DNA of 25,990 nt, from the NCBI GenBank assembly GCA_934216155.1, contig CAKQBK010000035.1, forward strand, positions 1 through 25,990, written 5' to 3'. Shown one piece after another: positions 1,144 to 25,990 of this stretch (the stretch's first letter is position 1; each line of letters opens with the position of its first letter). A program made the position numbers and the translations under genes. Below the pieces are notes generated by a model that did not search any database, was not told where the DNA came from, and was given only the letters and a program-made list of their open reading frames with translations. This DNA is from an uncultured Dialister sp. Its GTDB lineage: Bacteria > Bacillota > Negativicutes > Veillonellales > Dialisteraceae.

Positions 1144-1326
1144 GTTAAGGATTTGTGTCAGTAGGTATGATTCCGCTCGTTATAACAGGTTGCTCAAGTT
1201 TCTCAGGATTCTCAGGCTGCTCAGGTTCTCCGAATGTGCCGATAGGACCCTAGCGATATCATCTCAATCGGGGGGGCCCTTAGAATCTTTAGTACCCTCA
1301 GAAACTTCAGAACCTTTTCAAAGTGT
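1144..1326. repeat. Family A nonamer dyad, copy A1 (hybrid/partial)
   Basis: The left half (about 1144-1237) nearly duplicates the left half of copy A2: a GTTAAGGATTTG end, then about five 9-nt units of GGTTNCTCA type. The right half departs after the centre and carries a different inverted arm (about 1275-1317) with units such as AGAACCTTT and AGAAACTTC, closer to copy A3. The centre has a CTAGCGATAT motif also seen in the 8.9 kb and 20.8 kb repeats. It looks like a mosaic of two family members. Confidence 0.7.
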
Positions 1327-1378
1327 ACCACAAAAATAAGGATTAGTAGCTTGGAAATAGGAAATATCCCAATCCCTA

Positions 1379-1539
1379 GGGAAACGCTGATTTAATCAAA
1401 GCATCTGAAATTATATGAATTTTTATCCAAAGCATCGTCAAGGAAATCCTTAAATAGCTCGCTATTCGCGGATTTCCTTTCCTCGCTTTGAATAAAAATT
1501 CAAGAATAATTTCAGATAATGATTAAATCAGTGTTTCCC
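1379..1539 (+). repeat. Family B 161-nt hairpin element, copy B1 (MITE-like)
   Basis: Terminal inverted repeats of 20 bp (1379-1398 and 1520-1539, one mismatch) begin GGGAAAC and continue into a nearly full-length palindrome. Its apex is an AATAGC/GCTATT stem near 1453-1470. It is about 94% identical to the reverse complement of copy B2 at 18897-19057, and both are exactly 161 nt. It lies within CCTAATCCCTA...GCTACTAATCC-type sequence whose uninterrupted version occurs near 21124-21140, so an empty site can be inferred. It has no coding capacity, as expected for a non-autonomous element. Confidence 0.85.
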
Positions 1540-1563
1540 TTGCTACTAATCCTTAATTACTGC

Positions 1564-1791
1564 AATGCTGTTAAGTTAAGGATTTGCGTTAGCAGGTATG
1601 ATTCCGCTCGTAGTAACAGGTTGCTCAAGTTTCTCAGGATTCTCAGGCTGCTCAGGTTCTCCGAATGTGCCGATGAATGCTAGCGTCATTAGCTCATTTG
1701 AGAAACGTGAGAAACCTAAGTAGCCTGAGAAACCTGAGTAACCTTTGCATCAGCAGAAATCATCGCATATCTCGCTTAACTTAACAGCATT
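1564..1791 (-). repeat. Family A nonamer dyad, copy A2 (complete, with terminal inverted repeats)
   Basis: Perfect 16-bp outer inverted repeats AATGCTGTTAAGTTAA (1564-1579) and its complement (1776-1791) enclose two arms of about five 9-nt units each (GGTTNCTCA type inward on the left; TGAGNAACC type on the right) around a centre containing GCTAGCGTCATTAGC. Read on the minus strand, it closely matches copy A4 at 20897, end to end through both arms. It occupies most of the space just downstream of ychF. Confidence 0.85.
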
Positions 1792-1808
1792 ACTAGTTAC
1801 TGGTCTTA

Positions 1809-2915
1809 CTACACATTAAACCGGAAGTATGCAATATCTCCATCCTGGATGATATAGTCTTTTCCTTCCACACGAAGCAGGCCTTTTTCACGAACTGTCG
1901 CATAAGAGCCGCAATCCATGAGATCCTTATAGGACACGATTTCGGCACGAATGAACCCACGTTCGATATCACTGTGAATCTTCCCTGCTGCCTTCGGTGC
2001 CTTGGTGCCCGCTCTGACAGTCCAGGAACGACATTCATCAGGACCTACGGTAAAGAAGTTAATCAGTCCCAACATGGAATAAGCGGTACGAATCAAACGG
2101 TTCAGCCCTGGTTCTTCTTCGCCCAAATCTTCCAAGAAAGCCTTCGCTTCTTCTGGGTCCAGTTCGGATACTTCCTGTTCGATTTCCGCAGAAATCGGTA
2201 CCCACTTGGCCCCTTCTTTTTCTGCCTGGGCTGCAGCGGCCTGCACATACTGGTTGGCTGTGGGGTCGGAAATATCATCTTCTGCCACATTCAGCACATA
2301 CAGCACCGGCTTCAAGGTGATCAGATTCAATTCCTTCAAAATAGCCAAATCATCGTCCGAAAGTTCCAAAGCTCTTGCGGGGGTTCCTTCCTGCAGCGCA
2401 TTGTATACCTTTTCCAATACAGGAAGATCGGCCTTTGCTTCTTTGATACCTGCCTGGGCCAACTTGGCTGTCTTTGTCTTCTTCTTGTCTACGCTTTCCA
2501 AATCAGCCAGACAAAGCTCTGTATTGATGATATCCATATCACGGACAGGATCAATATTTCCTTCCACGTGGGTGATATCATCATTGACAAAACAACGAAC
2601 CACATGGGCAATGGCATCGGTTTCACGGATATGGCTCAAGAACTGATTGCCCAGCCCCTCGCCCTTAGACGCACCAGCCACCAGGCCAGCGATATCAACG
2701 AAACGGGTGAATGCTGGAGTGGTTTTCTTCGGCTGGAACATGTCCGCCAAATCATAAATGCGATGGTCCGGTACTTCCACCACGCCTACATTCGGTTCAA
2801 TGGTGCAGAAAGGAAAATTCGCCGCCTCTGCTCCGGCTTTCGTAATGGCATTGAAAAGCGTACTCTTCCCTACATTCGGAAGACCCACAATGCCGATTTG
2901 CAAATTTGTACTCAT
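1809..2915 (-). CDS. ychF: Redox-regulated ATPase/GTPase YchF (Obg family)
   Basis: The 368-residue product has the normal length for YchF/OLA1. The P-loop GLPNVGKST is at residues 11-19, the switch II DIAGL motif near 69, and the nucleotide-specificity motif is NVAE (N-x-x-E in place of NKxD), which in this family goes with ATP preference. The C-terminal part, with FFTVGPDECRSWTV and a terminal GDIAYFRFNV, is the TGS domain. YchF binds ribosomes and is implicated in translation and oxidative stress responses. The ATG at 2915 has GAGG 6 nt upstream. The gene is preceded by the S23-containing repeat cassette and followed by family A and B repeats, so it is probably transcribed alone. Confidence 0.97.
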   Translation of the reverse strand: MSTNLQIGIVGLPNVGKSTLFNAITKAGAEAANFPFCTIEPNVGVVEVPDHRIYDLADMFQPKKTTPAFTRFVDIAGLVAGASKGEGLGNQFLSHIRETDAIAHVVRCFVNDDITHVEGNIDPVRDMDIINTELCLADLESVDKKKTKTAKLAQAGIKEAKADLPVLEKVYNALQEGTPARALELSDDDLAILKELNLITLKPVLYVLNVAEDDISDPTANQYVQAAAAQAEKEGAKWVPISAEIEQEVSELDPEEAKAFLEDLGEEEPGLNRLIRTAYSMLGLINFFTVGPDECRSWTVRAGTKAPKAAGKIHSDIERGFIRAEIVSYKDLMDCGSYATVREKGLLRVEGKDYIIQDGDIAYFRFNV

Positions 2916-2962
2916 GATATCCTCTATTTTTTCGCTTATCTTACATAGTCTTGAAATGGATT

Positions 2963-3643
2963 ACTAAAAGGTTATATTCCGATGATTTCATCTTGCTCAT
3001 TTGGTATGTATATGGGCAAGCAAAGGGTTATAACTCCGATGATTGGGCTAAGCAAAAATACAATGCAACACTTTTCAAAAGGTTAGCCCTTCGGGCAGGT
3101 TATGTTCTTCCTGCATCGTCATCTCGCCATAAGGAATACGCTCTTCATGACAACTAGATGTCCGAGATGTATCCATGCTTAACCTGCGAATCATCTGATT
3201 AATCATCCATTGAATCGATCCCACTCGTTTCAATGCACTAGCCAGCAATGGATCCTTTGGCAAATACAAATCCAAGCAATACAGAAGTTGGGTATCTAAT
3301 TCATAGGCAGAACCACGAGCAATGTAAAGGAAATGAAGATAATCTCTTCTCGTTCCTCGCCCCTGTCCTTCCGCAATATTAGATCCGATAGAAGCTACCG
3401 CTCTCCGCATCTGATCACAAAGGCCATATTTCTCATGAGATGGCAACTGGTCGGCTATATGATATACCTCAGAGGCCAAAATCCTAGCCTCTTGCCACAC
3501 TTGCAAATTGCGATACCCTGCCATAAGCCACCTCACGATAGACGACATACCCTTCCTAACCCGCATAACCTTTATAACCCTTTACCAAGCAACTTCTTCG
3601 CAATGTTTGAAATGTGTCAAAGCATCAATAATAACCTTTTAGT
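2963..3643. repeat. Family C dyad C1, a cassette with the four-helix-bundle gene in its loop
   Basis: The outer arms ACTAAAAGGTTAT (2963-2975) and ATAACCTTTTAGT (3631-3643) are exact complements. Inside them, AAAGGGTTATA (3022-3032) pairs with TATAACCCTTT (3573-3583), followed by further AGGTTA-type units on both sides (3077-3103; 3548-3575). The gene at 3075-3524 lies in the loop. Its coding sequence runs into the repeats at the 3' end. The end motif relates to AAGGTTATTATTCTGC shared by copies C3 and C4. Confidence 0.75.
3075..3524 (-). CDS. Four helix bundle protein, S23/bAvd-like family (TIGR02436 type)
   Basis: The product is 149 residues from the ATG at 3524, chosen because GAGGTGG precedes it and the family start (YRNLQVWQEA) follows at once; an in-frame ATG 14 codons upstream lies in repeat DNA. 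The hallmark stretch SIGSNIAEGQGRGTRRDY, then FLYIARGSAYELDTQL, is diagnostic. Relatives are encoded within intervening sequences of 23S rRNA (Leptospira and others), and the bAvd relatives are accessory proteins of diversity-generating retroelements, where they bind nucleic acid and the reverse transcriptase. No reverse transcriptase is visible here. The last 30 or so residues (DTSRTSSCHEE... to the stop) exceed the usual length and are partly encoded by repeat DNA. Function unknown; its position inside a tandem-repeat dyad suggests it belongs to the element and not to the housekeeping genes around it. Confidence 0.88.
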   Translation of the reverse strand: MAGYRNLQVWQEARILASEVYHIADQLPSHEKYGLCDQMRRAVASIGSNIAEGQGRGTRRDYLHFLYIARGSAYELDTQLLYCLDLYLPKDPLLASALKRVGSIQWMINQMIRRLSMDTSRTSSCHEERIPYGEMTMQEEHNLPEGLTF

Positions 3644-3682
3644 CACTACCATACTTTCACTACAAGCCGCTATAGGAAAGCG

Positions 3683-4921
3683 CTATTTCCGTTCTGCCAA
3701 AGCCTTCTTCATTCTTTCTACTGCTTCTTTTGTCAGTTCTGGAGTGTTGAAAGAAGTGAGACGGACGTAGCCTTCGCCGCATGGACCGAAACCGGAGCCT
3801 GGGGTGCAAATGATTTCTGCTTCATTCAGAAGGAAATCAAAGAAATCCCAGCTGGTCATGCCTTCTGGTACAGTGAGCCATACATATGGACTATTCACGC
3901 CACCGCAAGCTGCCAGGCCTGCTTCTTTGGCACCTTCCAGAATGACTTTCGCATTATTTCTATAAATATCCAAAGTAGCCTGAATCTGCTTCTGACCTTC
4001 TTCGGTATAAATGGCTTCCGCACCACGCTGTACGATGTAAGAGCAACCATTGAACTTGGTGCACTGACGACGATCCCACAGGGAATTAGCAGATACCTTT
4101 TCGCCCTTCTTGGTTTCCAGCATCAATTCCTTCGGCACCACGCAGTAACCGCAACGAACGCCAGTGAAGCCAGCGGTCTTGGAATAAGAACGGAATTCGA
4201 TAGCCACTTCCTTAGCGCCTTCGATTTCATAAATGCTGTGCGGCACATCATCTTCGGTGATGAATGCTTCATAGGCAGCATCAAAGAAAATTACAGAGCC
4301 AGTCTGTTTGGCATAACGAACCCACATGGTGAGATCCTTCTTATTCATAGCCGCACCGGTCGGGTTGTTCGGAGAGCACAGATAAATAATCATCGGGTCA
4401 TGGGACGGCAGGTTTGCTTTGAAACCACATTCTTCATAGCATGGCAGGTATTCGAAACGTTCATAAGAACCACGAACAAACTTACCGCTTCTGCCAGCCA
4501 TGACATTGCTGTCCACATATACCGGGTAAACCGGGTCAGTGATAGCCACGATATCAGATTCAGCAAAAATTTCCTGCATGTTGCCTACATCGCACTTAGC
4601 ACCGTCGCTGACGAAAATTTCATCAGCAGAAATATCGCATCCTCTGTCCTGGAAATCATGCTTTGCAATGGCTTCGCGGAGGAACAAATACCCCTGTTCC
4701 GGACCATAGCCACGGAACGTTTCCACATGTCCCATTTCCTCTACAGCCGTCTTCATCGCTTCGATAACAACCGGAGCCAAAGGCTGGGTCACATCGCCGA
4801 TCCCCAAAGAAATAATATTCGCATTCGGATGAGCTGCCTTGTAAGCCTCCTGCTTCTTGCGAACTTCGGCAAACAGATACGCACCCTGAAGATTTAAATA
4901 GTTTTCATTGCAATGAGCCAT
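3683..4921 (-). CDS. dapL: LL-diaminopimelate aminotransferase
   Basis: The 412-residue product has the standard DapL length. It is a class I/II PLP aminotransferase that converts tetrahydrodipicolinate directly to LL-diaminopimelate with glutamate as amino donor, bypassing the acylated dap intermediates. The N-terminal NENYLNLQGAYLFAEV is typical of DapL. SPNNPTG lies at 183-189, FDAAYEAF around D214, and the Schiff-base lysine K248 in SYSKTAGFTGVR. AGAGG sits about 8 nt before the ATG at 4921. A strong promoter about 190 nt upstream and a leader hairpin (E1) precede it. It supplies lysine and diaminopimelate for peptidoglycan. Confidence 0.96.
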   Translation of the reverse strand: MAHCNENYLNLQGAYLFAEVRKKQEAYKAAHPNANIISLGIGDVTQPLAPVVIEAMKTAVEEMGHVETFRGYGPEQGYLFLREAIAKHDFQDRGCDISADEIFVSDGAKCDVGNMQEIFAESDIVAITDPVYPVYVDSNVMAGRSGKFVRGSYERFEYLPCYEECGFKANLPSHDPMIIYLCSPNNPTGAAMNKKDLTMWVRYAKQTGSVIFFDAAYEAFITEDDVPHSIYEIEGAKEVAIEFRSYSKTAGFTGVRCGYCVVPKELMLETKKGEKVSANSLWDRRQCTKFNGCSYIVQRGAEAIYTEEGQKQIQATLDIYRNNAKVILEGAKEAGLAACGGVNSPYVWLTVPEGMTSWDFFDFLLNEAEIICTPGSGFGPCGEGYVRLTSFNTPELTKEAVERMKKALAERK

Positions 4922-4974
4922 AATAATCGCCTCTCGTTATAAATTTTTTGTACCGTAGGAAATAACGTTGGATA

Positions 4975-5031
4975 GACTAGTGACTGGTGACTAGGAAAAG
5001 CGCAAATCCAGTCACCAGTCTACGAGTCACC
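4975..5031. repeat. Family E heptamer dyad E1 in the dapL leader
   Basis: The left arm (4975-4996) has GTGACTG-GTGACTA units and the right arm (5007-5031) the complementary CAGTCAC/GAGTCAC units, separated by about 10 nt. It lies between the predicted dapL promoter and start codon, so it would be transcribed as a hairpin in the 5' leader. No T-run follows it in the minus direction, so it does not look like a classical terminator. Confidence 0.75.
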
Positions 5032-5104
5032 ATGAATCTATCTTTTTCATGCACAGTGACACAGAACCGCATCTGATATTTCCTAAGAAAATACATACGG
5101 GTTT

Positions 5105-5133
5105 ATTTTAACATAAGAAAGAATGGTTCTCAA
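5105..5133 (-). promoter_or_regulatory. Sigma-70-type promoter for dapL
   Basis: On the minus strand, TTGAGA (5128-5133, 5/6 match) and TAAAAT (5105-5110, 5/6 match) are separated by exactly 17 nt. The predicted transcript would start near 5098, giving a leader of roughly 175 nt that contains dyad E1. Confidence 0.7.
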
Positions 5134-5242
5134 GGTAGGAAAATATCGTAGCTATGTCACTTAGTGGCTGTTCGTTAATTCATACACTCCATATTCATGA
5201 AATAAATCTAATAAAAGTTTGGCGCTCAAATACCTTTGCGCT

Positions 5243-5372
5243 ATAGGTTTAAGGTTTACTTTCCAAGCCCGCCATTCAAAAATAATGGATCTTGAAAGTA
5301 TCATTGGTTTAAGGTTTAAATGCTGAATACCAAACCCTAAACCTTAAACCAATGCCCCTTTCAAAACCTATC
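5243..5372. repeat. Family G nested heptamer dyad (GGTTTAA units)
   Basis: The inner perfect 17-bp stem CATTGGTTTAAGGTTTA (5302-5318) pairs with 5338-5354. Outside it, TTGAAAG (5292-5298) pairs with CTTTCAA (5358-5364) and ATAGGTTT (5243-5250) with AAACCTAT (5365-5372). An extra GGTTTAAGGTTTA copy lies at 5246-5258. The unit length is 7. It lies between the chlD-like gene terminator and the dapL promoter. The rest of this gap (5373-5502 and about 5134-5242) shows nothing I can name. Confidence 0.75.
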
Positions 5373-5502
5373 ATTTGTAGATGATGAACTCGGAACGTAA
5401 ACCATAACCCCCATAGTGCAAAAATATTCAGCTAATATCGAGCATTTAAACTACCTAGCATCTTCTGATATAACAGCATTGCCCTTTCACCACTTCGCAT
5501 GC

Positions 5503-5535
5503 AAAAAGAGTCTCTTCCCTCAAAGAGACTCTTTC
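5503..5535 (-). terminator. Intrinsic terminator of the chelatase ID genes
   Basis: On the minus strand, AAAGAGTCTCTT, a short loop and AAGAGACTCTTT form a strong stem ending in a T-run (T's at 5503-5507), about 10 nt after the chlD-like stop codon. Confidence 0.88.
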
Positions 5536-5544
5536 ATAATTCTG

Positions 5545-7464
5545 CTATCTATTCGCTGTGGTTCTCCAGATATGGAGCAGTTGGTCTTCGGAGATTTTAT
5601 CTACCTGGAAATAGGAGGCGCCCATTTCTTTGGCCAGTTTCTTGGCCAAGCCCAGTTTGATGAACCCCGATTCGGTGTCGATGACGGCCACTGGGAGGCC
5701 TCGTTTGCCTATACGTTTGGCTTCTTCCATGGCATCGGTCACTGGATTGGTGCCTTTATTGAGCGGGCTGGTGGCTCTGCCGTCGGTGATGAGGATCACC
5801 ACCGGGTCCTGGTTGGCATCTTGGCGATAGAGCATGTCCAGCACGTCTTCGGCTTTGAGAAGGCCGCTGGCTAGAGGGGTTTTGCCGCCAGTAGGCATGG
5901 AGGCCAGTTTCTTTTGGGCGAAGTCCACGCTTCGGGTGACTGGGAGGAGCACTTCTGCTTGTTTTTTGCGGAAGGCAATCATGCCGACCCGATCTCGTTT
6001 CTGGTAGGCGTCGAGAAGGATTTTGAAAATGACCCCTTTGACGGTTTTCATTCGTTCTCTGGCCCCCATGGAGCCGCTGGCGTCTACCACGAAGAGGAAA
6101 ATATTTCCTGTCCGTTTTTCACGGACTTTGCTTCGCAGGTCGTCTTTGCAAATCACCACGGCGCAGCCATTGGATTGACGGGCTTTCTGGTACGGTGCGG
6201 CGGCGCGGAGGGTAGCGTCGAAGGCGATGTCGCTGGTTTTGGCTTTCGGAATTTCGGCCCGAACGTAGCGGCCTTGCATGAGGTCGGTCATGGTGAGGCT
6301 TCGTTTGCCGCTGCCTTTTTTCGGTTTTCTATCTTTGGCCGGTTCAATCCACATGGGCGGCAGGTTGATGTGCAGATTCGCCGCATCCACTTTTTCTCGG
6401 CTCTGACCTTTTGGATTTGACATCGGTGGCTGGTTTTGGTTTTGTTCCTGGTTGCCTTCCCCATCTTCGGTGTCGGTTTGCGGCGTGTCACCGTTTTCTG
6501 GCATCGGCGGGGTGTTTTCCAAAGGTTCTTCTCTATGGTCGGAAGGTGGATTTTCTTGTGGTTCCTGTTGCTGTTGTTCCGGCGGTGTTTCTTGGGTTTG
6601 TTCCTGTTCTTTATTTTCCGCTTTTCGCATCCGATGAGGGAGCACAAATTCAGCGGCTTTTTCCAAATCTTTTGGCATCACGTAGGTGCGACCTGCCAGG
6701 GCGGCTTCGGCGCGGGCGGCCTCGATGAGGTAAATATCCGCTCTATGACCGGCCACGTGGGCTTTCAGTGTATATACAGCGGCCAGCTGAATCATGGCGG
6801 GCGAAACTTCTACGTTTTGTAAGGTATTTCTCGCTTTGGAAATACGAGCTTTCAGTGCGTCTGTTTCTTCTTGCCATGTATTTCTAAAAGCAATACCGTC
6901 TTTTTCAAAGGCCAGCACCCGGCGAATGATTTCCATCCGGGTGTCATTGTCATAACTGGTTTCAACCTGACAGAACAGGCCGAACCGGTCCAAGCTGGAG
7001 GAAGAAAGGGTGCCGCTGTCTGGATTCATGACCGAAAGAACGGTGAACTTCGTATTTCTAGTTTCCGACAGTCCATCTCGTTCTAGCCGGTAGCTGCCGG
7101 CTTCGCGGATATTCAAAATGGCAGAAAGTAAATCGTCTCGGAGAAGGTTGGCGTCGTCGATATAAATGAGTCCCCCATCGGCTTCATCGATCAACCCGGG
7201 AAGGAGTTTTTTGTGACCGCTGCGGATGGCTTCTTCGGCATCGATGGAGCCAAAGAGTCGATCTTCTGTGGTGCTGATAGGCACTTCCACCCAGGGGGCG
7301 TCCACCAGTTCTCTGGCACTTCGCATGAGGGTGGATTTCCCTGTTCCTTTTTCACCGGACAGCAGGAGCCCGCCGGCGTAGGGATTCACCAAGGTGAGAA
7401 GAATGGCTTCTTTGGCTTTTTCCATGCCGCAGATGGCGACGAAAGGAAATACGTTACGCTTCAT
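5545..7464 (-). CDS. ChlD/BchD-type chelatase subunit (AAA+ plus VWA)
   Basis: The 639-residue product is a D-type subunit of class I (ATP-dependent) metallochelatases. An N-terminal AAA+ module carries GEKGTGKST (37-45) and YIDDANLL (101-108). A low-complexity linker rich in Glu, Gln, Pro and Asn spans about 283-350. The C-terminal von Willebrand A domain carries the MIDAS motif DASGSMG (461-467), [11 protein letters not shown] near 525 and TDGRAT with D561. The D subunit is the scaffold on which the I subunit hexamer drives metal insertion by the large subunit. Its ATG overlaps the end of the chlI-like gene by 11 nt, indicating translational coupling. No chlorophyll genes are visible, so the partner is presumably the CobN-type subunit upstream. 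A terminator follows. Confidence 0.92.
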
Positions 7465-8482: not shown

Positions 8483-8537
8483 ATATTTTTCTCCTTTTTA
8501 ATGAAATATTAGTGACTGGTGACTGGGAATTAGGAGG

Positions 8538-8700
8538 GTTGTTAAGTTAAGCGAAACATAGGATGATTTCTTCTTCGTTACGGGTTCTGAAGGTTCTAAG
8601 GGTTCTCAAGGTTCTGAAGGTTTCTCGAATGAGCCAATAAACGCTAGCGTTATCATCTCATTCGGCGCCCCTAAGAACCTTTAGAACCCTTAGAACCTTA
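8538..8700 (+). repeat. Family A nonamer dyad, copy A3
   Basis: It begins with GTTGTTAAGTTAAGCGAAA, matching the A2/A4 end. The left arm (about 8583-8625) is strictly 9-periodic: GGTTCTGAA, GGTTCTAAG, GGTTCTCAA, GGTTCTGAA. The centre has GAATGAGCCAATAAACGCT and CTCATTCGG. The right arm (8671-8700) has complementary CTAAGAACC-type units. A family E half-arm (8508-8523, TTAGTGACTGGTGACT) lies just outside. The arm units differ from A2/A4 while the ends and centre are shared. Confidence 0.8.
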
Positions 8701-8754
8701 TATTTTTTGCGTTTTACCGCTGTACTAGACGCCTAAATGGTTATGTGCCACTAT

Positions 8755-9080
8755 CATGTATCACGCTAGTGCGAACTATCCCCCCTGCCCCCCTTCCAGA
8801 GGAAGAGGGGAGACGCTAGTAAATTTACCGATACAGCCATTTCCCTTTAGGAGCGGATAGCACCGGGTTCTCTTGATATGTTCATTGCGAAGTATGCCGC
8901 TAGAGTTGCCCATCTTCGCTACGCTCGAAATGGCGTCTCACTATATCCCTGCGTCGCTACGCTCCTAGCGATATAGTTCGCTTGCTCACCTCAGCCTTCG
9001 GCAGCTAGCTCCCCCGACAGGGGAGCCAAGACGCTAATGATTCTATGGGTAGAGTCATATTTCCTAATCCCTAGGGCCTA
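8755..9080. repeat. Composite palindromic repeats between the radical SAM and chlI-like genes (includes H1)
   Basis: No gene is seen. The stretch 8887-8924 plus 8955-8986 (GCGAAGTAT, CATCTTCGCTACGC, CCTAGCGATATAGTTCGC) matches 20810-20869, with about 30 extra nt in this copy. At about 8985-9032, CTCAGCC-TTCGG-CAGCTAGCTCCCC and a CCCCCGACAGGGG stem resemble a compact palindromic repeat common in gut Firmicutes intergenic regions (from memory). A related CCCCTT/AAGAGGGG stem is at 8785-8810. Confidence 0.6.
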
Positions 9081-9084
9081 GCTA

Positions 9085-10155: not shown

Positions 10156-10180
10156 AGTTTGTTATACCTTTTTAGATAGT

Positions 10181-10540
10181 TAGGAGTGAGGAGTGGTGGC
10201 GGCGAGCCCTCGAATTGCTCTTATATCGATTGCATACAAATAGCAAGATTCCTTTTTATATAGCTCGCCGATGACTGAAGTGGCTATCATCATATTTGAT
10301 GAGAAACAATAGTTATAAGGGGTTACAAAAGGTTATGAAAACACCGTATTCTAATAATCTTTTATCCCCCTTTTTACCCTTGTCACTTGCAATAACAGGA
10401 AATATTTCACAGCAGAAAATAATAACCTTTAGAGCCATGTTTCACATGAAACCTAACTTCAATCTAAGTATAAAAAGGGGTATTGGGGCGCTTTATGAAT
10501 TGCGCGCCCCTTCCGCCACTCCTCACTCCTCATTCCTAAC
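10181..10540. repeat. Family D heptamer dyad enclosing a family C dyad
   Basis: The left arm 10181-10204 (TAGGAGT-GAGGAGT-GGTGGCG) pairs with the right arm 10514-10540 (CGCCACTCCTCACTCC and onward), with extra AACTCCTCAC-type units to 10549. The unit length is 7. The family C2 element lies wholly inside. The gap (10156-10553) holds no gene that I can support. Confidence 0.75.
10311..10431. repeat. Family C nonamer dyad, copy C2 (nested in D)
   Basis: Left units AGTTATAAGG, GGTTACAAAA and GGTTATGAA (10311-10340) face right units in inverse sense (10352-10380: ATAATCTTTTATCCCCC, TTTTTACCC). The right outer end GCAGAAAATAATAACCTTT (10412-10430) is the family C terminal motif. The left terminal motif is degraded or absent. 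Confidence 0.65.
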
Positions 10541-10553
10541 TCCTCACTGCTTT

Positions 10554-14306: not shown

Positions 14307-14575
14307 GGTGACTGGTGACTCGTGACTAGAGGATGTTTGTTAATTCAAATTTCAACTAGAACAATAATTGTTGCTGGTTGTTAGTTGTTGGATTCAAATA
14401 ACTAACAACCAGCAACAGTGCGTACACAGGAATCTGCACAATACCCGTATTTCTATGCACTTGAATATCAAATTTTGCTGCACATATTCGGTAAATATCG
14501 GGCGTACAAATTATAGAGCATCCTCTAGCAAGAAAAAACATAGCCTAGTCACCAGTCTACCAGTCACTAGTCACC
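14307..14575. repeat. Family E heptamer dyad E2, enclosing F, in the cobN leader
   Basis: Left units GTGACTG, GTGACTC, GTGACTA (14308-14328), continuing as AGAGGATG, face the right AGTCACC-type units (14546-14575) and GCATCCTCTA (14518-14527). The unit is strictly 7 nt. The loop contains the family F dyad and about 100 nt of AT-rich sequence. Confidence 0.75.
14370..14416. repeat. Family F heptamer hairpin (GTTGNTN units) nested in E2
   Basis: The 16-bp perfect stem GTTGCTGGTTGTTAGT (14370-14385) pairs with 14401-14416. The left arm reads as 7-nt units GTTGCTG, GTTGTTA, GTTGTTG. Confidence 0.85.
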
Positions 14576-14580
14576 ATTTC

Positions 14581-17680: not shown

Positions 17681-17757
17681 GGTGACTAGTGAATGGTGAC
17701 TGGTGACTAGGACGAATAGCAGTCTCCAGTCACTAGTCACCAGTCCACCAGTCACCA
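17681..17757. repeat. Family E heptamer dyad E3 in the threonine operon leader
   Basis: The left arm GGTGACTAGTGAATGGTGAC and onward (17681-17711) pairs with the right arm 17725-17757 (TCCAGTCACTAGTCACCAG and onward) across about 13 nt, giving some 30 nearly continuous pairs. It lies between the predicted promoter and the ACT gene. A TTTTT stretch follows on the minus strand about 10 nt later, too far for a standard terminator. Confidence 0.8.
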
Positions 17758-17833
17758 ATTACGACTAGTGTAAAAGGTTCTCACTTTTGTATTTCTATCA
17801 ACAATCATGTAAGTATATACATGTTGTATCACA

Positions 17834-17862
17834 AGTTTACCCTATAGGCTACTTTTTGACAA
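17834..17862 (-). promoter_or_regulatory. Candidate promoter for the ACT-hom-thrB operon
   Basis: On the minus strand, TTGTCA (17857-17862, 5/6 match) and TAAACT (17834-17839, 4/6 match) are separated by 17 nt. The resulting leader of about 200 nt would contain hairpin E3. Confidence 0.5.
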
Positions 17863-17903
17863 TGGGTGGAATCATAAATTTTTTATATAATGAGTAGCTA
17901 CTA

Positions 17904-18692: not shown

Positions 18693-18767
18693 AGTTATAT
18701 CCTGTCTTGAAATAATGTAGAAAAATGAATGAGACTCATCAAGTGATATAGCACCGCAGGATATTAT

Positions 18768-19116
18768 AAGGTTATTATTCTGCTGACCGACCATGTGTCA
18801 ACGCGAAAGACACGGCTTTGCAAAAGGTTAAAAAGGGGGATAAATAGCTTATGCAACTAACATAATCAAATACCCCTGTGTAACCTTTATAACCTAGGGA
18901 AACACTGATTTAATCATGGTTTGAAATTATTCTTGAATTTTTATCTAAAGCGAGGAAAGAAAATCCGCGAATAGCGAGCTATTTAAGGATTTTCTTGACG
19001 ATGCTTTGGATAAAAATTCATATAATTTCAAATTCTTTGATTAAATCAGCGTTTCCCTAGACTCTGTCGGCCTAAAAACTATTGTCTGCTATCGAACAAG
19101 GCAGAACAATAACCTT
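18768..19116. repeat. Family C nonamer dyad, copy C3, interrupted by B2
   Basis: The left terminal motif AAGGTTATTATTCTGC (18768-18783) is matched by an inverted GCAGAACAATAACCTT at 19101-19116 (one mismatch). Inner left units AAAAGGTTA and AAAAGGGGGATAAA (18823-18846) face inverted TACCCCTGTG, TAACCTTTA, TAACCTA (18871-18896). The B2 hairpin starts immediately after the inner right arm, so it inserted into an older C element. Confidence 0.78.
18897..19057 (-). repeat. Family B 161-nt hairpin element, copy B2 (MITE-like)
   Basis: Its ends are GGGAAACACTGATTTAATCA (18897-18916) and the inverted GATTAAATCAGCGTTTCCC end (19039-19057). It differs from the reverse complement of B1 at nine positions by hand alignment. 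TA flanks both ends (ctaGGG and CCCtag), compatible with a short target duplication. It lies inside dyad C3. Confidence 0.87.
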
Positions 19117-19141
19117 CATAAGCTGTACATCGCCACCACTT

Positions 19142-19663: not shown

Positions 19664-20232
19664 GCTTTCCACTCCATATCGTCAATGAGCTGGCAAATGA
19701 TATGAGCACAAAGCATGTGCATTTCCTGAATGCGGGCAGTCACATCGGAAGGAATCACCAAAGCGGTATCACACAGTGCCACCATGGAGCCTCCGGTTTT
19801 ACCTGTGGATCCGATGGTTTTCATTCCTTTCGCTTTGGCAGCTTTCAGTGCTTCATTCACATTGGCACTATTACCACTGGTGGAAATGCCCCAGAGGACG
19901 TCCCCTTCTTGCCCCAGTCCTTCTACTTGACGGGAAAAGATGCGGTCAAAAGCGTAGTCATTTCCTACGGCAGTCAGAATGGACGTATCGGTGGTGAGAG
20001 CAATGGATGGTAAGGAAATACGTTCATTGTGATATCTGCCTACCAATTCAGCCGCAATGTGCTGCGCATCGGCAGCACTGCCACCGTTCCCGCAAATCAA
20101 AATTTTATGGCCTGCTTGCAGCGCTTCATAGCAAACCGTTGCCATTTCGTAAATGACAGGAAATAAAGCTTTTGTCTTTTCCAATGCTTCTGCATGGTCG
20201 GCAAAGCAAGAGGAGATAGTTTCTTTATTCAT
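19660..20232 (-). CDS. gmhA: Sedoheptulose 7-phosphate isomerase (SIS domain)
   Basis: The 190-residue product starts at the ATG at 20232, preceded by AAGGA; a TTG further upstream lies within nrdR and is less likely. [24 protein letters not shown] is the GmhA signature, with [15 protein letters not shown], a SIS loop [11 protein letters not shown] and [25 protein letters not shown]. It converts sedoheptulose 7-phosphate to D-glycero-D-manno-heptose 7-phosphate, the first step to ADP-heptose. It overlaps nrdR by 8 nt and gmhB by 4 nt, so the three genes form one coupled unit. Confidence 0.94.
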
Positions 20233-20713
20233 TATGATTTCCTTTATGTTCAATCGATTTGGAATGGCCCATCAATGTTTTCAGTTCATTCATGAAGCTT
20301 CCAATATCTTTAAATTCTCGATAGACCGAGGCAAAGCGCACGTAGGCCACCTGGTCCAATTGACGAAGTTCGTCCATCACCAGATTGCCAATCCGTTCGC
20401 TGGATACTTCCTGTTTCAAATCGTTGCGAAGGGTCCGTTCGATGTGATTCACAATATCTTCAATTTGAGAGGTGGTGATATTTCTTTTTTCACAGGCTCT
20501 CACCAATCCGCTACGCAGTTTATTCCGGTCAAACATTTCTCGGGTTCCATTTTTCTTGATCACCCGAAGTGGTGTGGTTTCTACCGTTTCATAGGTGGTA
20601 AAACGGCGTCCACAGGAGAGACACTGCCGGCGACGGCGAATCGAAGCGCCATCATCGGTATCTCTGGAGTCAGTCACCTTCGTATCTGTGCTACTGCAAA
20701 ATGGACATTTCAT
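20225..20713 (-). CDS. nrdR: Transcriptional repressor NrdR
   Basis: The 162-residue product starts at the ATG at 20713 (MKCPFC), with GGGAG about 8 nt upstream; the open frame extends 12 codons further but lacks support. The N-terminal zinc ribbon C3-x2-C6 and CLSCGRRF, and the ATP-cone domain ([19 protein letters not shown]) and [15 protein letters not shown], are typical. NrdR senses dATP/ATP and represses ribonucleotide reductase genes. Its pairing with the heptose genes gmhAB is by position (overlap), not an obvious functional link. Confidence 0.97.
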
Positions 20714-20809
20714 AGGTTGGCTCCCTCTGGTTAGATTAATCAACTGCAAAAAATAAAAAGTGAAAAGTGAGTAGTGGTATTAGTCCCGTAACGGATTGTC
20801 ATACTACTT

Positions 20810-20869
20810 GCGAAGTATAAAGAGCTACCCATCTTCGCTACGCACCTAGCGATATAGTTCGCTTGCACA
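20810..20869. repeat. Repeat H2 (GCGAAGTAT ... CTAGCGATATAGTTCGC)
   Basis: It matches 8887-8924 plus 8955-8986 (H1), lacking the intervening segment there. It contains GCGAAG/CTTCGC complementarity. It lies next to family A copy A4, as H1 lies near A3. Confidence 0.65.
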
Positions 20870-20896
20870 CTTCTTGTATTCTCCCCTCGACTGAGC

Positions 20897-21085
20897 AATG
20901 CTGTTAAGTGAAGCGAAATATGCGATGATTTCTGCTGATGCAAAGGTTACTCAGGTTTCTCAGGATACTTAGGTTTCTCACGTTTCTCGAATGAGCTAAT
21001 GACGCTAGCATCTATTGGCACATTCGGAGAACCTGAGCAACCTGAGAACCTTTAGAAACTTGAGCAACCTGTCACCAACAGCGGA
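20897..21085 (+). repeat. Family A nonamer dyad, copy A4
   Basis: It is nearly collinear with the reverse complement of A2: AATGCTGTTAAG start, ATGCGATGATTTCTGCTGAT, then units GGTTACTCA, GGTTTCTCA, GGATACTTA, GGTTTCTCA, CGTTTCTCG (20944-20988), a centre with GCTAATGACGCTAGCAT, and a right arm of inverted units (about 21022-21072). A family E half-arm (21136-21154, CTACTAGTCACTAGTCACC) lies outside to the right. Confidence 0.82.
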
Positions 21086-21172
21086 GATAAAACGCTAATG
21101 CTACTACCGCTATAGACCTATTTCCTAATCCCTAGCTACTAGTCACTAGTCACCAAATATATTAAAAGGAAG

Positions 21173-21205
21173 AAAAAGCCACACTGCGAGTTGCGGTGTG
21201 GCTTT
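21173..21205 (-). terminator. Intrinsic terminator after ftsZ
   Basis: On the minus strand AAAGCCACAC pairs with GTGTGGCTTT (21196-21205 and 21175-21184) and runs into T's. It lies 11 nt past the ftsZ stop. Confidence 0.9.
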
Positions 21206-21216
21206 CCGGTTGTGAA

Positions 21217-22260
21217 TTATTTTCTGAGGAATTCAGGAACCGCAATACCTGTGGTTGGACGAACGGAGTTGCTGAATCGGCTGGTATTGGAAGTCTGGGT
21301 TGGTGTCTTTTTCTTGTCGCCAAAGCCAGTAGCAATAACAGTGATTTTTACAGTATCGTTGTCAAGAGACGGGTCTACAGAAGTACCCCAAATGATGTTG
21401 GCATCCGGATCGGCTGCTTCGGTGATGATCTGGGAAGCTTCATTGATTTCAAAGAGGCCCAGGTCTTCATTACCGGTGATGTTGATGATAATGCCTTTAG
21501 CGCCGTCAATGCTGCGTTCCAGCAGTGGGCTATTGATAGCCATGGTGGCAGCATCGCTGGCACGATTGTCGCCGCTGCCGATACCGATACCCATCAGAGC
21601 TTCACCCTGGTCGCTCATGATGGTACGTACGTCAGCAAAGTCCAGGTTGATGATACCAGGAACGGTAATCAAGTCGGAAATGCCCTGGATGCCCTGACGA
21701 AGTACGTCATCAGCGGTTTTGAAAGCATCTTTAATGGAAGTCTTTTTATCAATGATTCCCATCAGTTTATCATTCGGAACCACCAGAATGGCATCGACGC
21801 TGTTTTTCAAACGTTCAATCCCTTCAGCAGCATTTTTCGCTCTGACTTTACCTTCAAAGGAAAATGGTTTAGTGACAACCGCAATGGTGAGTGCACCCAA
21901 TTCTCTAGCACACTGCGCTGCTACTGGAGCAGCACCGGTACCTGTGCCGCCACCCATACCAGCGGTAACGAAAACCATGTCTGCACCGGTCAGTGCTTTG
22001 GTCAGGTCTTCTTTGGATTCTTCAGCGGCCTGTTCGCCCACTTCTGGTCTAGCGCCTGCGCCGAGACCTTTGGTCAGCTTTTCGCCAATCTGAATTCTAT
22101 GGTCTTCTTCTACTTTGGATTTATTCAGAACCTGGGTTTCTGTATTGACAGCAAAGAATTCTACTCCTTTGACTTCTGCATCAATCATGCGGTCAACTGC
22201 GTTATTTCCGCCGCCACCTACACCAATTACTTTAATATTTGCCATTTCGGACTGTTCCAT
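21217..22260 (-). CDS. ftsZ: Cell division protein FtsZ
   Basis: The 347-residue tubulin-like GTPase forms the cytokinetic ring. [13 protein letters not shown] is near residue 13, the tubulin signature [12 protein letters not shown] at 101-112, and the T7-loop [11 protein letters not shown] near 210. The short C-terminal tail ends in the conserved partner-binding peptide (AVPEFLRK). AAGGAGGAG lies just upstream of the ATG at 22260. It follows ftsQ after 151 nt with no ftsA between them. A terminator closes the transcript. Confidence 0.98.
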
Positions 22261-22411
22261 GTTTTGCTCCTCCTTTAGGGCCTATTGTCATGTATTTGTT
22301 GACTCAGGATATGCATCCCTGTTTCTATGTATCATATTTTACATTGTACAATACTTTCGGCAACTTCGCTACAGTTTCCGTGAGACAATTTGATAAAAAA
22401 TGCAAAAATTT

Positions 22412-23281
22412 TTATTTTTTCAGCTTGATAAAGGGAGATGCCAGATTGGCATCCACATATTCTACAGAAAGGCCGCGGGCTTTCACATCTCCCACCATAT
22501 TTTCTGCCAGTTCTGCCTGTTTCGCCATGTCGCTGCCATTGCCAAGACGGACGGTCACCCCATCACGGGTGTACGCCCGGATGTTATCATCATTTCCTAA
22601 ATTCACTTCCGAAAAGGCTTTCCGTCCCTCTGGGGAAAGGTGATTCAAGAAATCCAGGGCTTTGGAAACATCTCCCTGGGACACCGTATCTCCCAGGAGC
22701 AGATTACCCAGTCGCTTTCCTGTAATCATCGGTACTTCTACTTTGCGAATGGCTTGCACCGAATCAATGACCATACCGTCTTTGTCAATGAAAGCGTAGC
22801 TCATTTCTCCACGAATCACAGCCAAAGGTACCCGATCTTCGATATGCACTTCCAGTTCAAAGGGGAAATGTCTCGTCACGGTTACATGGGCCACTCGGAT
22901 ATCATGGCTCAGTCGGTCTTCCAGTTCGCTGCCGCTGATTTGCAGCACATTCACCGGTTGGGAAATACGACCTTCAAAGAGTACATCTTCCAATGTCAAT
23001 GTGTCGGTCCCGGTGAGATGAATGTATCCCAAAGGAATAGGCAAAAAGAGAAGTGCCGCAACCAATAGAATCACCGTTCCTGCGGCACCTGCCACGTAGG
23101 CTTTGCCTCGATGGAATCCATGCTTTTTCTTCGGATGATGAATGACAGGTGTCTCTTCTACCGTGTCTTCCAGTGGTACCACAGGCTCTGGCTCGTGGTT
23201 GATTTTTTCCTGTTTTTCCTCAGGTAGCTTCCCCGCATGCTGCTCTCGTCGAAATTCGTTGAAGCTTTTAAAATTATCCAT
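22412..23281 (-). CDS. ftsQ: Cell division protein FtsQ/DivIB
   Basis: The 289-residue bitopic membrane protein has a charged cytoplasmic N-terminus (about 1-60), one membrane helix (AYVAGAAGTVILLVAALLFLPI, about 62-83), then a POTRA-like segment (YIHLTGTDTLTLEDVL) and the extracytoplasmic beta domain (DRVPLAVIRGEMSYAFIDKDGMVID). FtsQ/DivIB links FtsB/L and septal wall enzymes. The POTRA start and position between ddl and ftsZ support the call. AGGA lies 9 nt before the ATG at 23281. A family C dyad separates it from ddl. Confidence 0.9.
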   Translation of the reverse strand: MDNFKSFNEFRREQHAGKLPEEKQEKINHEPEPVVPLEDTVEETPVIHHPKKKHGFHRGKAYVAGAAGTVILLVAALLFLPIPLGYIHLTGTDTLTLEDVLFEGRISQPVNVLQISGSELEDRLSHDIRVAHVTVTRHFPFELEVHIEDRVPLAVIRGEMSYAFIDKDGMVIDSVQAIRKVEVPMITGKRLGNLLLGDTVSQGDVSKALDFLNHLSPEGRKAFSEVNLGNDDNIRAYTRDGVTVRLGNGSDMAKQAELAENMVGDVKARGLSVEYVDANLASPFIKLKK

Positions 23282-23328
23282 ATATTATGATCCTGTAAAA
23301 CTTGTAAAAGCAATGATGCTAAAGAATA

Positions 23329-23513
23329 AAGGTTATTATTCTGCCATGTTCCCTGTCAAGCATAATAGCATATACCGCTACAATCCAGGTTATAAAGGTT
23401 ATATAGGGTTATGTGACATCGTTAGTTTCATAACCTTTTATAACCCTTTTAACCTTTTGATAAGCCCTATCTTCTCATAGTGAAACATAGCAAATCAGTA
23501 GAATAATAACCTT
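23329..23513. repeat. Family C nonamer dyad, copy C4 (best-preserved family C copy)
   Basis: Terminal motifs AAGGTTATTATTCTGC (23329-23344) and GTAGAATAATAACCTT (23498-23513) bound the element. Inner left units GGTTATAAA, GGTTATATA, GGGTTATGT (23389-23415) face right inverted units (23429-23460: CATAACCTTTTATAACCC, TTTTAACCTTTT) across about 14 nt. It lies between ddl and ftsQ. Confidence 0.83.
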
Positions 23514-23558
23514 ATATCTTCTACGCTACCACCGCTCATTATCTCTTCTAACCGCTAT

Positions 23559-24494
23559 TTACACCTTATTCAATCCTGCTTCCAGGAGTATTTTTTCGCA
23601 AAGGGTCGGGAAGTCCATGCCTGCGGCGGCAGCGGCTTTAGGAACTAGGCTGGTGGCGGTCATGCCAGGAATGGAGTTTGCTTCCAGGATGAATGGTTTT
23701 CCTTCTGCATCGGTTTTGAAATCGAAGCGAACCACGCCGGCACATTCTGCCATGCGGTACCCAGCTTCTGCCAATTCGCTCATTTCTTTGGTCAGTTCTT
23801 CGGAAATAGGTGCCGGCACAATGTAGTCAGTGGCCCCTTTGGTATATTTCGAATGATAATCATACTGTCCGGAATGGGGGCAAATCTGAATCACTGGCAG
23901 GGCTTTCCCATCCAAAACGGACACGGTAAATTCATCGCCAGCCAAGTAGGCTTCGGCCAGCATACGAGGTTCCACGTGGAACACCCGATCAATGGCACCT
24001 TCCAGGTCTTCTTCTTTTCTGACAATTTCAATCCCAATGGTAGATCCTTCGCAAGCAGGCTTCAACACAACTGGAAATTTGAAATGGGACAGAATGTCTG
24101 CTTTCACTGCTTCTTTTCCATCTTTCAGATAGTACGGTTTGGAATCCGCCATAGGAAGATGGGCCTGTTTGAAGAAATGACTGGTCATAATCTTGTCCAT
24201 GGTGATGGCACTGGATGTGACGCCAGAACCGGTGTAAGGAATTTCTGCCAGTTCCAGTACGCTCTGCACGGTCCCATCTTCCCCATATTTCCCATGAAGG
24301 GCGATGAAAACTGCATCGGCCCCTAAAGTTTTCAAATTTTCTACCACATGATGTGGGTCGTATTCCATTGGTGTGACGGAGTACCCGATAGAAGACAAGG
24401 CTTCTGCGATGGCACTGCCTGTATTTCTAGAAACTTCTGCTTCTGTAGAAGGGCCACCCATGAGTACTACGATTTTACTCTCTTTTGTAATCAC
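23559..24494 (-). CDS. ddl: D-alanine--D-alanine ligase
   Basis: The 311-residue ATP-grasp enzyme joins two D-alanines for the peptidoglycan precursor. VVLMGGPSTEAEVS is near the N-terminus, ALHGKYGEDGTVQSVLELAEIPYTGSGVTSSAITMDK near 83, KPACEGSTIGIEIV near 151, and the metal site FILEANSIPGMTATSLVPKAAAAAG near 268. The ATG at 24494 overlaps the murC stop by 4 nt (ATGA). In this gene order murB is not present between murC and ddl. Confidence 0.97.
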   Translation of the reverse strand: MITKESKIVVLMGGPSTEAEVSRNTGSAIAEALSSIGYSVTPMEYDPHHVVENLKTLGADAVFIALHGKYGEDGTVQSVLELAEIPYTGSGVTSSAITMDKIMTSHFFKQAHLPMADSKPYYLKDGKEAVKADILSHFKFPVVLKPACEGSTIGIEIVRKEEDLEGAIDRVFHVEPRMLAEAYLAGDEFTVSVLDGKALPVIQICPHSGQYDYHSKYTKGATDYIVPAPISEELTKEMSELAEAGYRMAECAGVVRFDFKTDAEGKPFILEANSIPGMTATSLVPKAAAAAGMDFPTLCEKILLEAGLNKV

Positions 24495-25885
24495 TTGTTT
24501 ATCCCTTTTTCCTTTACCATTTGAATCAATTCTTCACCGGAGCGGTAAATACTACCGGCTCCCATGGTTATAATCATATCACCTGGCTGGATAAAATCAT
24601 ATAGAGCTTTTGCCATTTCGTGAATATTTTCCACATAATGGATTTCTTTTCCTGGATTTCGTTTCGCAACCAAAGACGGAATCAGGTGTCCATCTACGCC
24701 GGCAATCGGTTCTTCGCTGGCCGCATAAATGTCGGTAAAGAACAGAACGTCTGCATCATCAAAGGCTTCCGCAAATTCCTGCTGCAGCAGCTGGGTGCGA
24801 GAGTACCGATGGGGCTGGAACGCACAAATGATGCGATGGTCCCCTGTTTCTCTGGCAGCACGCAAGGTGGCTTCAATTTCTGTCGGATGGTGCGCATAAT
24901 CATCCACCACCCAGAGATCATTTTCTCTGGATTTCGTTTCAAAGCGGCGCTTCACGCCTACGAAATGAGAAAGAGCCTGCTGGATAGTGGTAAAGGAAAT
25001 ACCACAATAGAGCCCGGTCACTACAGCGCCCAAAGCGTCTCGGATGTTATGGGTTCCCGGAATCTGCAGTTCGATGGTGCCCAAGTTTTCTCCTTTATGA
25101 AGCACATTGAAGAACAGGTGCTTATTTTCATACCGTTTATTGATAGCCTGGTAATCAGCATTTTCATCCAATCCATAGGTAATGATGGGCTTTTCTACCT
25201 TTGGCAGAATAGCCTTCACCCCTTCGCTATCGATGCAAAGAATGGCTGCACCGTCATTATAGGAAATATGGCTAATGAATTCCACGAAGGCTTTGCGAAT
25301 ATTTTCCACGCTACCATAGTGATCCAAATGGTCATCTTCGATATTGGTCACCACCGTGAGGTACGTGGAGAATTTCAAGAAAGAGCCGTCACTTTCATCG
25401 GCTTCGGCAATCACATAATCGCCATGACCCAGAATGGAATTGCCATGAATGTAGTCTGCAGCGGCCCCCAGTACGATGGTGGGGTCTTTCTGGGCTTCAT
25501 AGAAAATCTGTCCCACCATAGCGGAGGTGGTGGATTTCCCATGAGCACCGGCTACCGCAATGCCTTTCCCCCACTGGAACATAGCTGCCAGCACGTCAGA
25601 CCGATGGAAGACGGGAATGTTTTCCTTTTTCGCTTCCAACAGTTCTGGATTGTCGTCTGAAATGGCAGAGGAAATAATGAGACAATCTGCCCCTTTCACA
25701 TGCTCTGCCTTGTGCCCAATATAAACAATGGCACCTTTTTTACGAAAATCTTCTAAAAAAGGAGAATCGTTCATATCGGAGCCAGATACTTCATATCCTT
25801 TGTCAAGCAAAATCGTAGCCAAGGCTCTCATGCCCATGCCACCAATTCCTACAAAGTGAAATCGATGATATCTATTCAAATCCAT
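24491..25885 (-). CDS. murC: UDP-N-acetylmuramate--L-alanine ligase
   Basis: The 464-residue cytoplasmic Mur ligase adds L-Ala to UDP-MurNAc. HFVGIGGMGMRALA is near residue 9, the ATP-binding loop AGAHGKSTTSAM near 112-122, EADESDGSF near 165, the DDYAHHPTEI motif near 335 and CAFQPHRYSRT near 360. AAGGAGG lies upstream of the ATG at 25885. It is coupled to ddl. The upstream region holds a tandem repeat array running off the window. Confidence 0.98.
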   Translation of the reverse strand: MDLNRYHRFHFVGIGGMGMRALATILLDKGYEVSGSDMNDSPFLEDFRKKGAIVYIGHKAEHVKGADCLIISSAISDDNPELLEAKKENIPVFHRSDVLAAMFQWGKGIAVAGAHGKSTTSAMVGQIFYEAQKDPTIVLGAAADYIHGNSILGHGDYVIAEADESDGSFLKFSTYLTVVTNIEDDHLDHYGSVENIRKAFVEFISHISYNDGAAILCIDSEGVKAILPKVEKPIITYGLDENADYQAINKRYENKHLFFNVLHKGENLGTIELQIPGTHNIRDALGAVVTGLYCGISFTTIQQALSHFVGVKRRFETKSRENDLWVVDDYAHHPTEIEATLRAARETGDHRIICAFQPHRYSRTQLLQQEFAEAFDDADVLFFTDIYAASEEPIAGVDGHLIPSLVAKRNPGKEIHYVENIHEMAKALYDFIQPGDMIITMGAGSIYRSGEELIQMVKEKGINK

Positions 25886-25916
25886 AGTAGGATCCTCCTT
25901 GTTATTTGAAATATAG

Positions 25917-25990
25917 GGTTCTCAGGGTTCTCAGGGTTCTCAGGGTTCTCAGGGTTCTCAGGGTTCTCAGGGTTCTCAGGGTTCTCAGGG
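25917..25990. repeat. Perfect GGTTCTCAG tandem array (family A arm), cut by window edge
   Basis: Eight exact 9-nt copies plus two bases run to the window end. This is the unit of family A arms in its most homogeneous form, probably the left arm of another dyad. It begins about 32 nt upstream of the murC start codon. Confidence 0.95.

Follow-up and report, generated by a model that had tools for sequence, protein, structure and literature searches.

The intergenic gaps of a 25,990-nt stretch of DNA from an uncultured Dialister sp. (contig CAKQBK010000035.1; the whole stretch is called the window below) contain short tandem arrays that face each other as the arms of dyads. The best explanation, to which we assign a probability of about 0.72, is that these arrays are parts of one type of element, composed of a G-rich tandem array, a gene for the 23S rRNA intervening sequence protein (IVP; S23p) and a complementary C-rich array. 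This class is defined here as the IVP hairpin element; its units are 7 (8, 9, 11) nt long. Computational analysis gives its architecture and statistics: the two arms match within each copy, and the period of the arrays is linked to the lineage of the protein. The element is present in intergenic DNA, at the intervening sequence (IVS) site of 23S rRNA, in one RNase P RNA hairpin and in an insertion sequence of the ISL3 family. It seems that intergenic facing arrays and the intervening sequences of rRNA are hairpin elements of a single kind.

Heptamer arrays have been noted in bacteria for decades, with no agreed cause. Their tie to IVP, a protein without a known function (PMC4990558), makes both questions testable. 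The intervening sequences of 23S rRNA become one habitat of a wider element, and RNase P RNA is added as a host.

Tandem arrays flanking IVP genes

Genes matching the IVP family (PF05635) are present in 4 of the 12 Dialister-family genomes, in 20 of 31 genomes of diverse origin that were reached via other loci and in 28 of 30 Nostocaceae genomes. At E ≤1e-12, they occur in 14 of 81 genomes of Dialister's phylum and, among the matches listed, in at least 42 of the 61 genomes sampled from Bacteroidota. Protein searches over a phylum sample with two IVP subfamilies gave matches in 2/59 and 10/59 genomes. Two stretches on viral contigs fit an IVP pattern, neither confirmed as IVP.

From these sources, 227 domains were assembled, including that of the window. 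Those of at least 60 aa, collapsed at 97%, numbered 196; eight had no two usable flanks, which left 188 copies. The array caller required tandem arrays of equal period in the two 350-nt flanks. Such arrays are present on both sides of 128/188 IVP copies, in four phyla: 24/35 in Bacillota_C, 22/34 in Bacteroidota, 6/14 in Planctomycetota, 76/104 in cyanobacteria (including one bin titled Gracilibacteria) and 0/1 for the window. The period is 7 in 103 of the 128, 8 in 18, 9 in three, 11 in two, and 10 and 12 in one copy each. The last two calls (L253, period 10; L291, period 12) were judged by eye to be low-complexity artefacts and were left out of the polarity, tree and folding analyses. With the same caller, arrays were found at 8/960 random placements and in 0/411 shuffled flank pairs. 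A transposase control, drawn from the same 30-genome Nostocaceae sample, gave 0/25 for Y1_Tnp genes (5 of 30 loci were too short and were dropped) versus 15/22 for IVP genes.

The sequence-only reading of the window had proposed one architecture with few periods and many unit cores, and this description extends to four phyla around IVP genes. The two periods that it gave, 7 and 9, hold for the window; other genomes show 7, 8, 9 and 11. Array density correlates with the number of IVP genes in 34 genomes (Spearman 0.40, p 0.018), a result that was not used, being based on at most one ~20-kb locus per genome.

Polarity and folding of the arms

Reverse complementarity between the two flanks of an IVP gene exceeds the 99th percentile for mismatched flank pairs in 103/188 copies (median 21.0 vs 9.0), and likeness in direct orientation does so in 25/188. 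For 75 copies, unit identity between a copy's own two arms is 0.838, as against 0.528 with other copies. Read on the coding strand, the 5′ arm has more G than C in 100 of 126 copies (fewer in 14, tie in 12), and the 3′ arm is C-rich in 104 and not in 13, with nine ties. This is not a plain strand skew, because the polarity flips across the gene. Minimum-free-energy RNA folding of 40 elements drawn at random paired the own arms around the gene in 25 of them; when the 3′ arm was replaced by a foreign one, closure was found in 2/40.

Copies inside 23S rRNA, RNase P RNA and an insertion sequence

When the E. coli 23S gene was BLASTed against 223 loci (L081–L303), four were found to contain an IVP gene inside a 23S rRNA gene, namely L256, L266, L270 and L272. 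They come from three genomes of the Dialister phylum sample, and two of them, in one genome, have identical sequences. In E. coli numbering, the insert is at 1164/1185 in L256 and 1158/1186 in L266 and L272, while L270 is placed by its 3′ side only; L256, L266 and L270 also give LSU_rRNA matches. Positions 1158–1186 are taken to be helix 45, the site named for the IVS of Coxiella. The stem of L256 is formed by facing heptamers (GAGGTTA GATGTTA GAGGTTA GAAGTTG), and those of L266 and L272 by facing heptamer arrays; in L270 the 5′ side reads N and the 3′ arm alone is visible.

Among the nearest known counterparts is the IVS in helix 45 of Coxiella burnetii, where the S23p/IVP open reading frame (ORF) occupies the loop of a stem, two to three tandem heptamers precede the ORF in a number that varies by strain, and the insert is cut out by RNase III (PMC4990558). 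The four loci described here are likewise 23S inserts with an IVP gene, and L256, L266 and L272 have facing heptamer stems. In contrast to the Coxiella IVS, most copies lie outside known RNAs, some lineages use periods of 8, 9 or 11, and one copy sits in RNase P RNA. Passages of that paper on the heptamers treat them as a local trait of one element (PMC4990558).

The closest relative of the L256 protein (0.58) is encoded by L258, where an RNase P RNA gene encloses the IVP element (RF00010 matches 1229–2003 and all 367 model positions; gene at G173:C1:403572-404346). The insert of ~400 nt is a single insertion in a hairpin, presumably P12, and its arms are facing heptamers. The search of the 2.4-Mb genome gave no RNase P RNA match other than this gene with its insert, so that the one detected rnpB holds a protein gene in a hairpin. 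In another 60 IVP loci searched with Rfam, no further case of an IVP within a known RNA was found. In cyanobacteria, the short tandemly repeated repetitive (STRR) sequences of rnpB are heptamers in P12 that are not known to carry a gene, and heptamers are also found in the tRNA-Leu intron; the STRRs of heterocystous cyanobacteria are said to have been described in the RNase P RNA gene by Vioque in 1997. These, too, are tandem repeats in RNase P RNA; L258 differs in that a whole IVP gene stands between the arms, and in its phylum. Two IVP elements (L261, L265) were also seen ~110–200 nt from a tmRNA gene.

A further habitat is provided by the 12.3-Mb Nostocaceae genome G116, which contains seven near-identical ISL3 copies with a transposase (PF01610, 2.6e-67) and IVP as the second ORF (L211, ~58–1953; further copies L189, L210, L213, L214, L215 and L212, the last with a run of N). 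They are bounded by inverted repeats that hold a small hairpin and heptamer arrays. Target repeats of six copies, read by eye, are 8 bp in five and 7 bp in L189. As this element shows, transposons can also carry IVP together with its arms as cargo.

More generally, the arms could be the terminal inverted repeats of ordinary transposons or of miniature inverted-repeat transposable elements (MITEs), with IVP as cargo and transposases acting in trans. The G116 element, with tnpA and IVP within heptamer-bearing inverted repeats and target repeats of 7–8 bp, fits such a scheme, as do the conserved ends of the two window families A and B described below. The units themselves fit it poorly: they differ between most copies (56 distinct units among 75), unlike fixed transposon ends. 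In the window, none of the ORFs examined was noted to encode a transposase, with six of the proteins scanned against Pfam. As an account of the whole class, transposon ends are quite improbable.

Unit sequence and period in relation to IVP lineage

In an earlier set of 92 called copies, the 75 of period 7 had 56 distinct units. Unit identity rises with IVP similarity, from 0.55 at the far end to 0.95 for the eight pairs above 0.9; the baseline for random 7-mers is 0.48. Since unit identity climbs with protein similarity, the arms are evidently inherited with the gene and drift. The same relationship weakens the idea of a brand-new unit at every insertion, and the generator proposed for the window, if taken to produce a new unit at each site, is not needed. 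Slippage together with arm-to-arm correction would explain the drift of the units.

The period follows the protein as well. It is common to nearest protein neighbours in 114 of 128 copies against 85.2 expected, the maximum of 10,000 permutations being 106; with 59 copies, significance had not yet been reached (p 0.07), and it came with the larger sets. In a quick tree of 121 IVPs (those of the 126 copies with a domain of at least 85 aa), the period changes 11 times, compared with 21.1 after shuffling (minimum 16 of 1000) and a minimum of 17 when shuffled within phyla. The most distinctive group is a clade of 15 copies marked by AEAWRKR, of which 11 have period 8, two period 9 and two period 7; 14 of the 15 belong to the cyanobacterial group. 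Two related IVP genes from different genomes (L257, L271) were observed to carry clean 11-nt arrays of the AACGATAGTTA type.

The sequence-only reading had not recognised facing arrays of two periods and many cores in one genome. Facing heptamers as such are not entirely new: stem heptamers are known from Coxiella (PMC4990558), and convergent pairs from Xanthomonas, with 70 and 75 GGGAATC pairs in two genomes (PMC4692102). The heptamers of Xanthomonas and Nostoc (GGGAATC, GGGGA(C/T)T) are mostly intergenic, and both heptamer over-representation and the idea of a polymerase footprint are already published (PMC4692102). Period 7, intergenic bias and convergent pairs are thus common to these heptamers and the arrays described here; for the former, one unit core per organism is described, and in the main text of the paper the terms S23, XCC0516, 23S and transposase each have 0 occurrences (PMC4692102). 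Xanthomonas campestris does encode an IVP (2GSC = XCC0516). By title and abstract, among the matches listed, no paper besides that on Coxiella links IVP genes to tandem arrays, in a search that mostly did not cover subscription papers and preprints.

On this background, the arrays could be generic simple-sequence repeats, with slippage favouring 7-nt units, quasi-palindrome correction copying one arm onto the other and IVP as a passenger that chances to lie in such gaps. The published over-representation and footprint idea (PMC4692102), the drift of the arms with descent and the occurrence of arrays in a genome without IVP matches (G008) agree with such an origin. Against it stand the counts at IVP flanks (128/188 and 15/22, as against 8/960 at random and 0/25 at transposase genes); moreover, the period follows IVP lineage, and heptamer arms also close the IVP inserts of rRNA as well as that of RNase P RNA. 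Generic repeats are considered rather unlikely.

The IVP gene of the window and family B

The window contains one IVP gene, an ORF of 163 aa at 3075..3566 on the minus strand (start probably 3521), which is annotated as 23S rRNA intervening sequence protein or four helix bundle protein. It matches PF05635 (E 5e-33, 113.9 bits, cut-off 33.8) and TIGR02436 (E 1.2e-31, 109.1 bits, cut-off 24). Its AlphaFold model is a four-helix bundle with a predicted local distance difference test score (pLDDT) of 86, and is nearest to the Xanthomonas IVP 2GSC (2gsc_B, template modelling (TM) score 0.72/0.91) and Bacteroides 2RLD, followed by Avd of diversity-generating retroelements.

The gene lies in a family B element (2963..3640, minus strand) with inward 9-nt arms of the GGTTAT type, recognised by unit positions and an end 12-mer: GGTTAT is found on the plus strand at 2970, 3026 and 3098, and ATAACC at 3565, 3574 and 3631. 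The array units reported at 2963 are thus present, and the IVP gene inside had been overlooked. The genes flanking the element are 755 nt apart in the window and 20–66 nt apart in three relatives by alignment; relative to these, 2963–3640 is therefore an insertion. The aminotransferase on one side (3683–4921), presumably DapL, shares 90% identity with its counterpart in Dialister sp. UBA7295.

Family B (GGTTATNNN) comprises this copy and three copies without the gene. One, at 10311..10430, has GGTTAT at 10331 and ATAACC at 10422 and stands between GAGGAGT arms; another, at 18768..19116, was found by dyad, units and end 12-mer and encloses a 160-bp palindrome (18897-19057); in the third, at 23322..23520, four GGTTAT units face three ATAACC units, and symmetry and end 12-mer agree. 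In all four spans, every GGTTAT lies left of every ATAACC; more copies of both hexamers also occur outside these spans. The end 12-mer AAGGTTATTATT has five exact occurrences in the window and one with one mismatch. Because its count at up to two mismatches (6 vs 2.6 expected) is reached by 4/100 shuffles, the weight of this end rests on exactness. The window's IVP copy is a candidate member of the class, placed there by inward unit orientation and the exact 12-mer at one end.

Gene-less arrays of the window

The arrays and dyads that the sequence-only reading had placed in the gaps are present there with the cores it gave. Its claim of narrow periods was borne out when best tandem scores were added up for 12 of the 13 window gaps, leaving out the perfect 9-mer array at 25915–25990, and compared with 100 dinucleotide shuffles: z is 11.3 at period 7 and 13.6 at period 9, as against 3.4 at 8, 3.1 at 10, 6.0 at 14, 6.5 at 18 and −1.4 to 2.8 at periods 5, 6, 11–13 and 15–17. 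Facing arms, which it had also described, were assessed by the self-reverse-complement score of each of 12 gaps against 200 dinucleotide shuffles. Nine are self-complementary beyond shuffles (at most 3/200 reach the score; z 3.1 to 30.4), two of which (1122–1808, 18695–19141) also contain a 160-bp palindrome that may drive the score; the symmetry of gaps 2916–3074, 3567–3682 and 22261–22411 is not significant. Neither an even spread of periods nor arms as symmetric as those of shuffled sequence, the outcomes named in advance as refuting, was found in the window.

Family A consists of copies with GGTTCTNNN units, common outer ends and a central palindrome. The outer end CTGTTAAGTTAAGCGA has four copies at up to three mismatches versus 0.12 expected, and the centre is conserved in an alignment of three copies. 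A diverged element with 9-nt GGTTCT-type units was found by array and dyad searches at 1144..1330. The copy at 1560..1794 is a near-complete palindrome (59-nt arms, 75% complementary) with conserved ends and centre; conserved end and centre are also found at 8534..8710 (31-nt arms, 90% complementary) and in the dyad at 20896..21085. The perfect 9-nt array AGGGTTCTC (25915..25990, plus strand, 8.4 copies in the tandem search) had been listed as a dyad at 25917; the array is there, as a single one cut by the window end. Families A and B resemble REPINs (repetitive extragenic palindrome doublets forming hairpins) and MITEs as short dispersed intergenic palindromes with conserved ends, and differ from them in their tandem-array arms, in units mostly private to each IVP copy and in a different kind of linked protein.

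The remaining families have 7-nt units. GTGACTN arms face each other at 4973..5030 (with a short loop), 14307..14576 and 17681..17757, each by tandem, dyad and period tests; within the second lies a GTTGNTN dyad (14369..14417; 24-nt arms, 92% complementary). GGTTTAA arms are found at 5243..5353 (16-nt arms, 94% complementary), and GAGGAGT arms at 10178..10548, by tandem and dyad searches, enclosing a family B element. Two lone short arrays, of GTGACTG at 8512..8526 and of AGTCACT type at 21138..21153, have no noted partner arm in the tandem and period tests.

An alternative is that these dyads serve as transcription terminators or regulatory hairpins and have nothing to do with IVP elements; they are intergenic and fold well, and Rfam at gathering thresholds gives no known RNA in the window, rRNA included. 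Sharp periods of 7 and 9 and common family ends would not be expected of terminators, one family B copy carries an IVP gene, and the proposal is very unlikely. Instead, we infer that the gene-less families A, GTGACTN, GTTGNTN, GGTTTAA and GAGGAGT are gene-less relatives or relics of IVP hairpin elements. They consist of facing 7- or 9-nt arrays, like the arms of that class. Units like those of some of them flank IVP genes in other phyla (e.g. L154, L140), which may be chance.

Several observations weigh against extending the class so far, or against the class itself. No IVP gene or remnant lies between the arms of the gene-less window dyads: a six-frame profile search of the window (frames of at least 45 aa, E 1e-6), which shorter or weaker remnants would escape, matched IVP at 3198–3512 only. 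One pattern search of 12 genomes, restricted to GTGACTN, found no GTGACTN arms with an IVP gene between them, and family A DNA has no match in 12 relatives. The Dialister-family genome G008, without an IVP match, contains GTGACTN arrays, and arrays can therefore exist without the gene. The derivation of the gene-less 7-nt families is accordingly put forward conditionally, as they were never seen with an IVP gene in these searches and G008 has arrays too. The window's own IVP copy has arms too diverged for the strict same-period caller and for the facing-arm score, and the symmetry score of its joined span (2916–3682) is reached by 37/200 shuffles. As the window elements lie between protein genes, the rRNA location implied by the name '23S rRNA IVS' does not apply to them. 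In the wider set, which consists mostly of best-scoring matches (the best 30 loci or fewer per search) and is not random, 48/188 copies lack both a called period and significant facing arms. The clade with periods 8 and 9 is a single one, whose period may be one inherited state; inheritance of the period suffices, because the AEAWRKR clade is a single lineage and the 59-copy test was not significant. Finally, movement of the element by itself, excision and binding of the arms by IVP are proposals suggested by sequence, and none was observed.

Possible mode of action

Transcripts of IVP hairpin elements would form a long stem whose loop holds the gene. Sites in structural RNAs may be tolerated because the insert would merely lengthen a terminal stem, and the rRNA inserts would be cut out by RNase III, by analogy with what is published for Coxiella. 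Slippage would alter the number of units, and hairpin-templated correction could keep the arms complementary during unit drift.

IVP itself may bind the arms, or aid the persistence or movement of the element, as a putative relative of Avd. Avd of diversity-generating retroelements (PDB 4DWL, 8UB7) is a four-helix bundle and a fold match to IVP. The sequence link is weak, as the bAvd profile PF22296 matched 4/5 IVPs at E 4.6e-8 to 0.0019, all below the cut-off, and the window IVP gave no bAvd match at 0.001. None of the six Pfam-scanned window proteins is a reverse transcriptase, with no search aimed at reverse transcriptases or template repeats having been made.

A templated or protein-measured step behind period 7 (8, 9, 11) and its link to lineage is possible, and it is possible that IVP measures the unit length. 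In its furthest form, IVP, alone or with a polymerase, would measure or write the arms, the protein lineage setting the unit length and leaving the sequence free. The element would then be a protein-templated repeat generator, setting hairpins into the gaps between genes and onto the tips of essential structural RNAs, and the known bacterial heptamer repeats would be its footprints. This we regard as a speculative idea with the odds against it.

Other repeats of the window

Some further repeats accompany these elements. A near-perfect, MITE-like palindrome of ~160 bp with ends GGGAAACRCTGATTTAATCA occurs twice, at 1379–1539 between two family A copies and at 18897–19057 within a family B element. 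A compound motif with CCTAATCCCTAGCTACTAGTCACTAGTCACC is found at 21121–21153 and in L304 of G008, there near 7-nt arrays of GGTTCAA/GGTTCAG. Another dispersed repeat is represented by the related stretches CCATCTTCGCTACGC and CTAGCGATATAGTTCGCTTGC in the gaps at 8880–9000 and 20790–20880.

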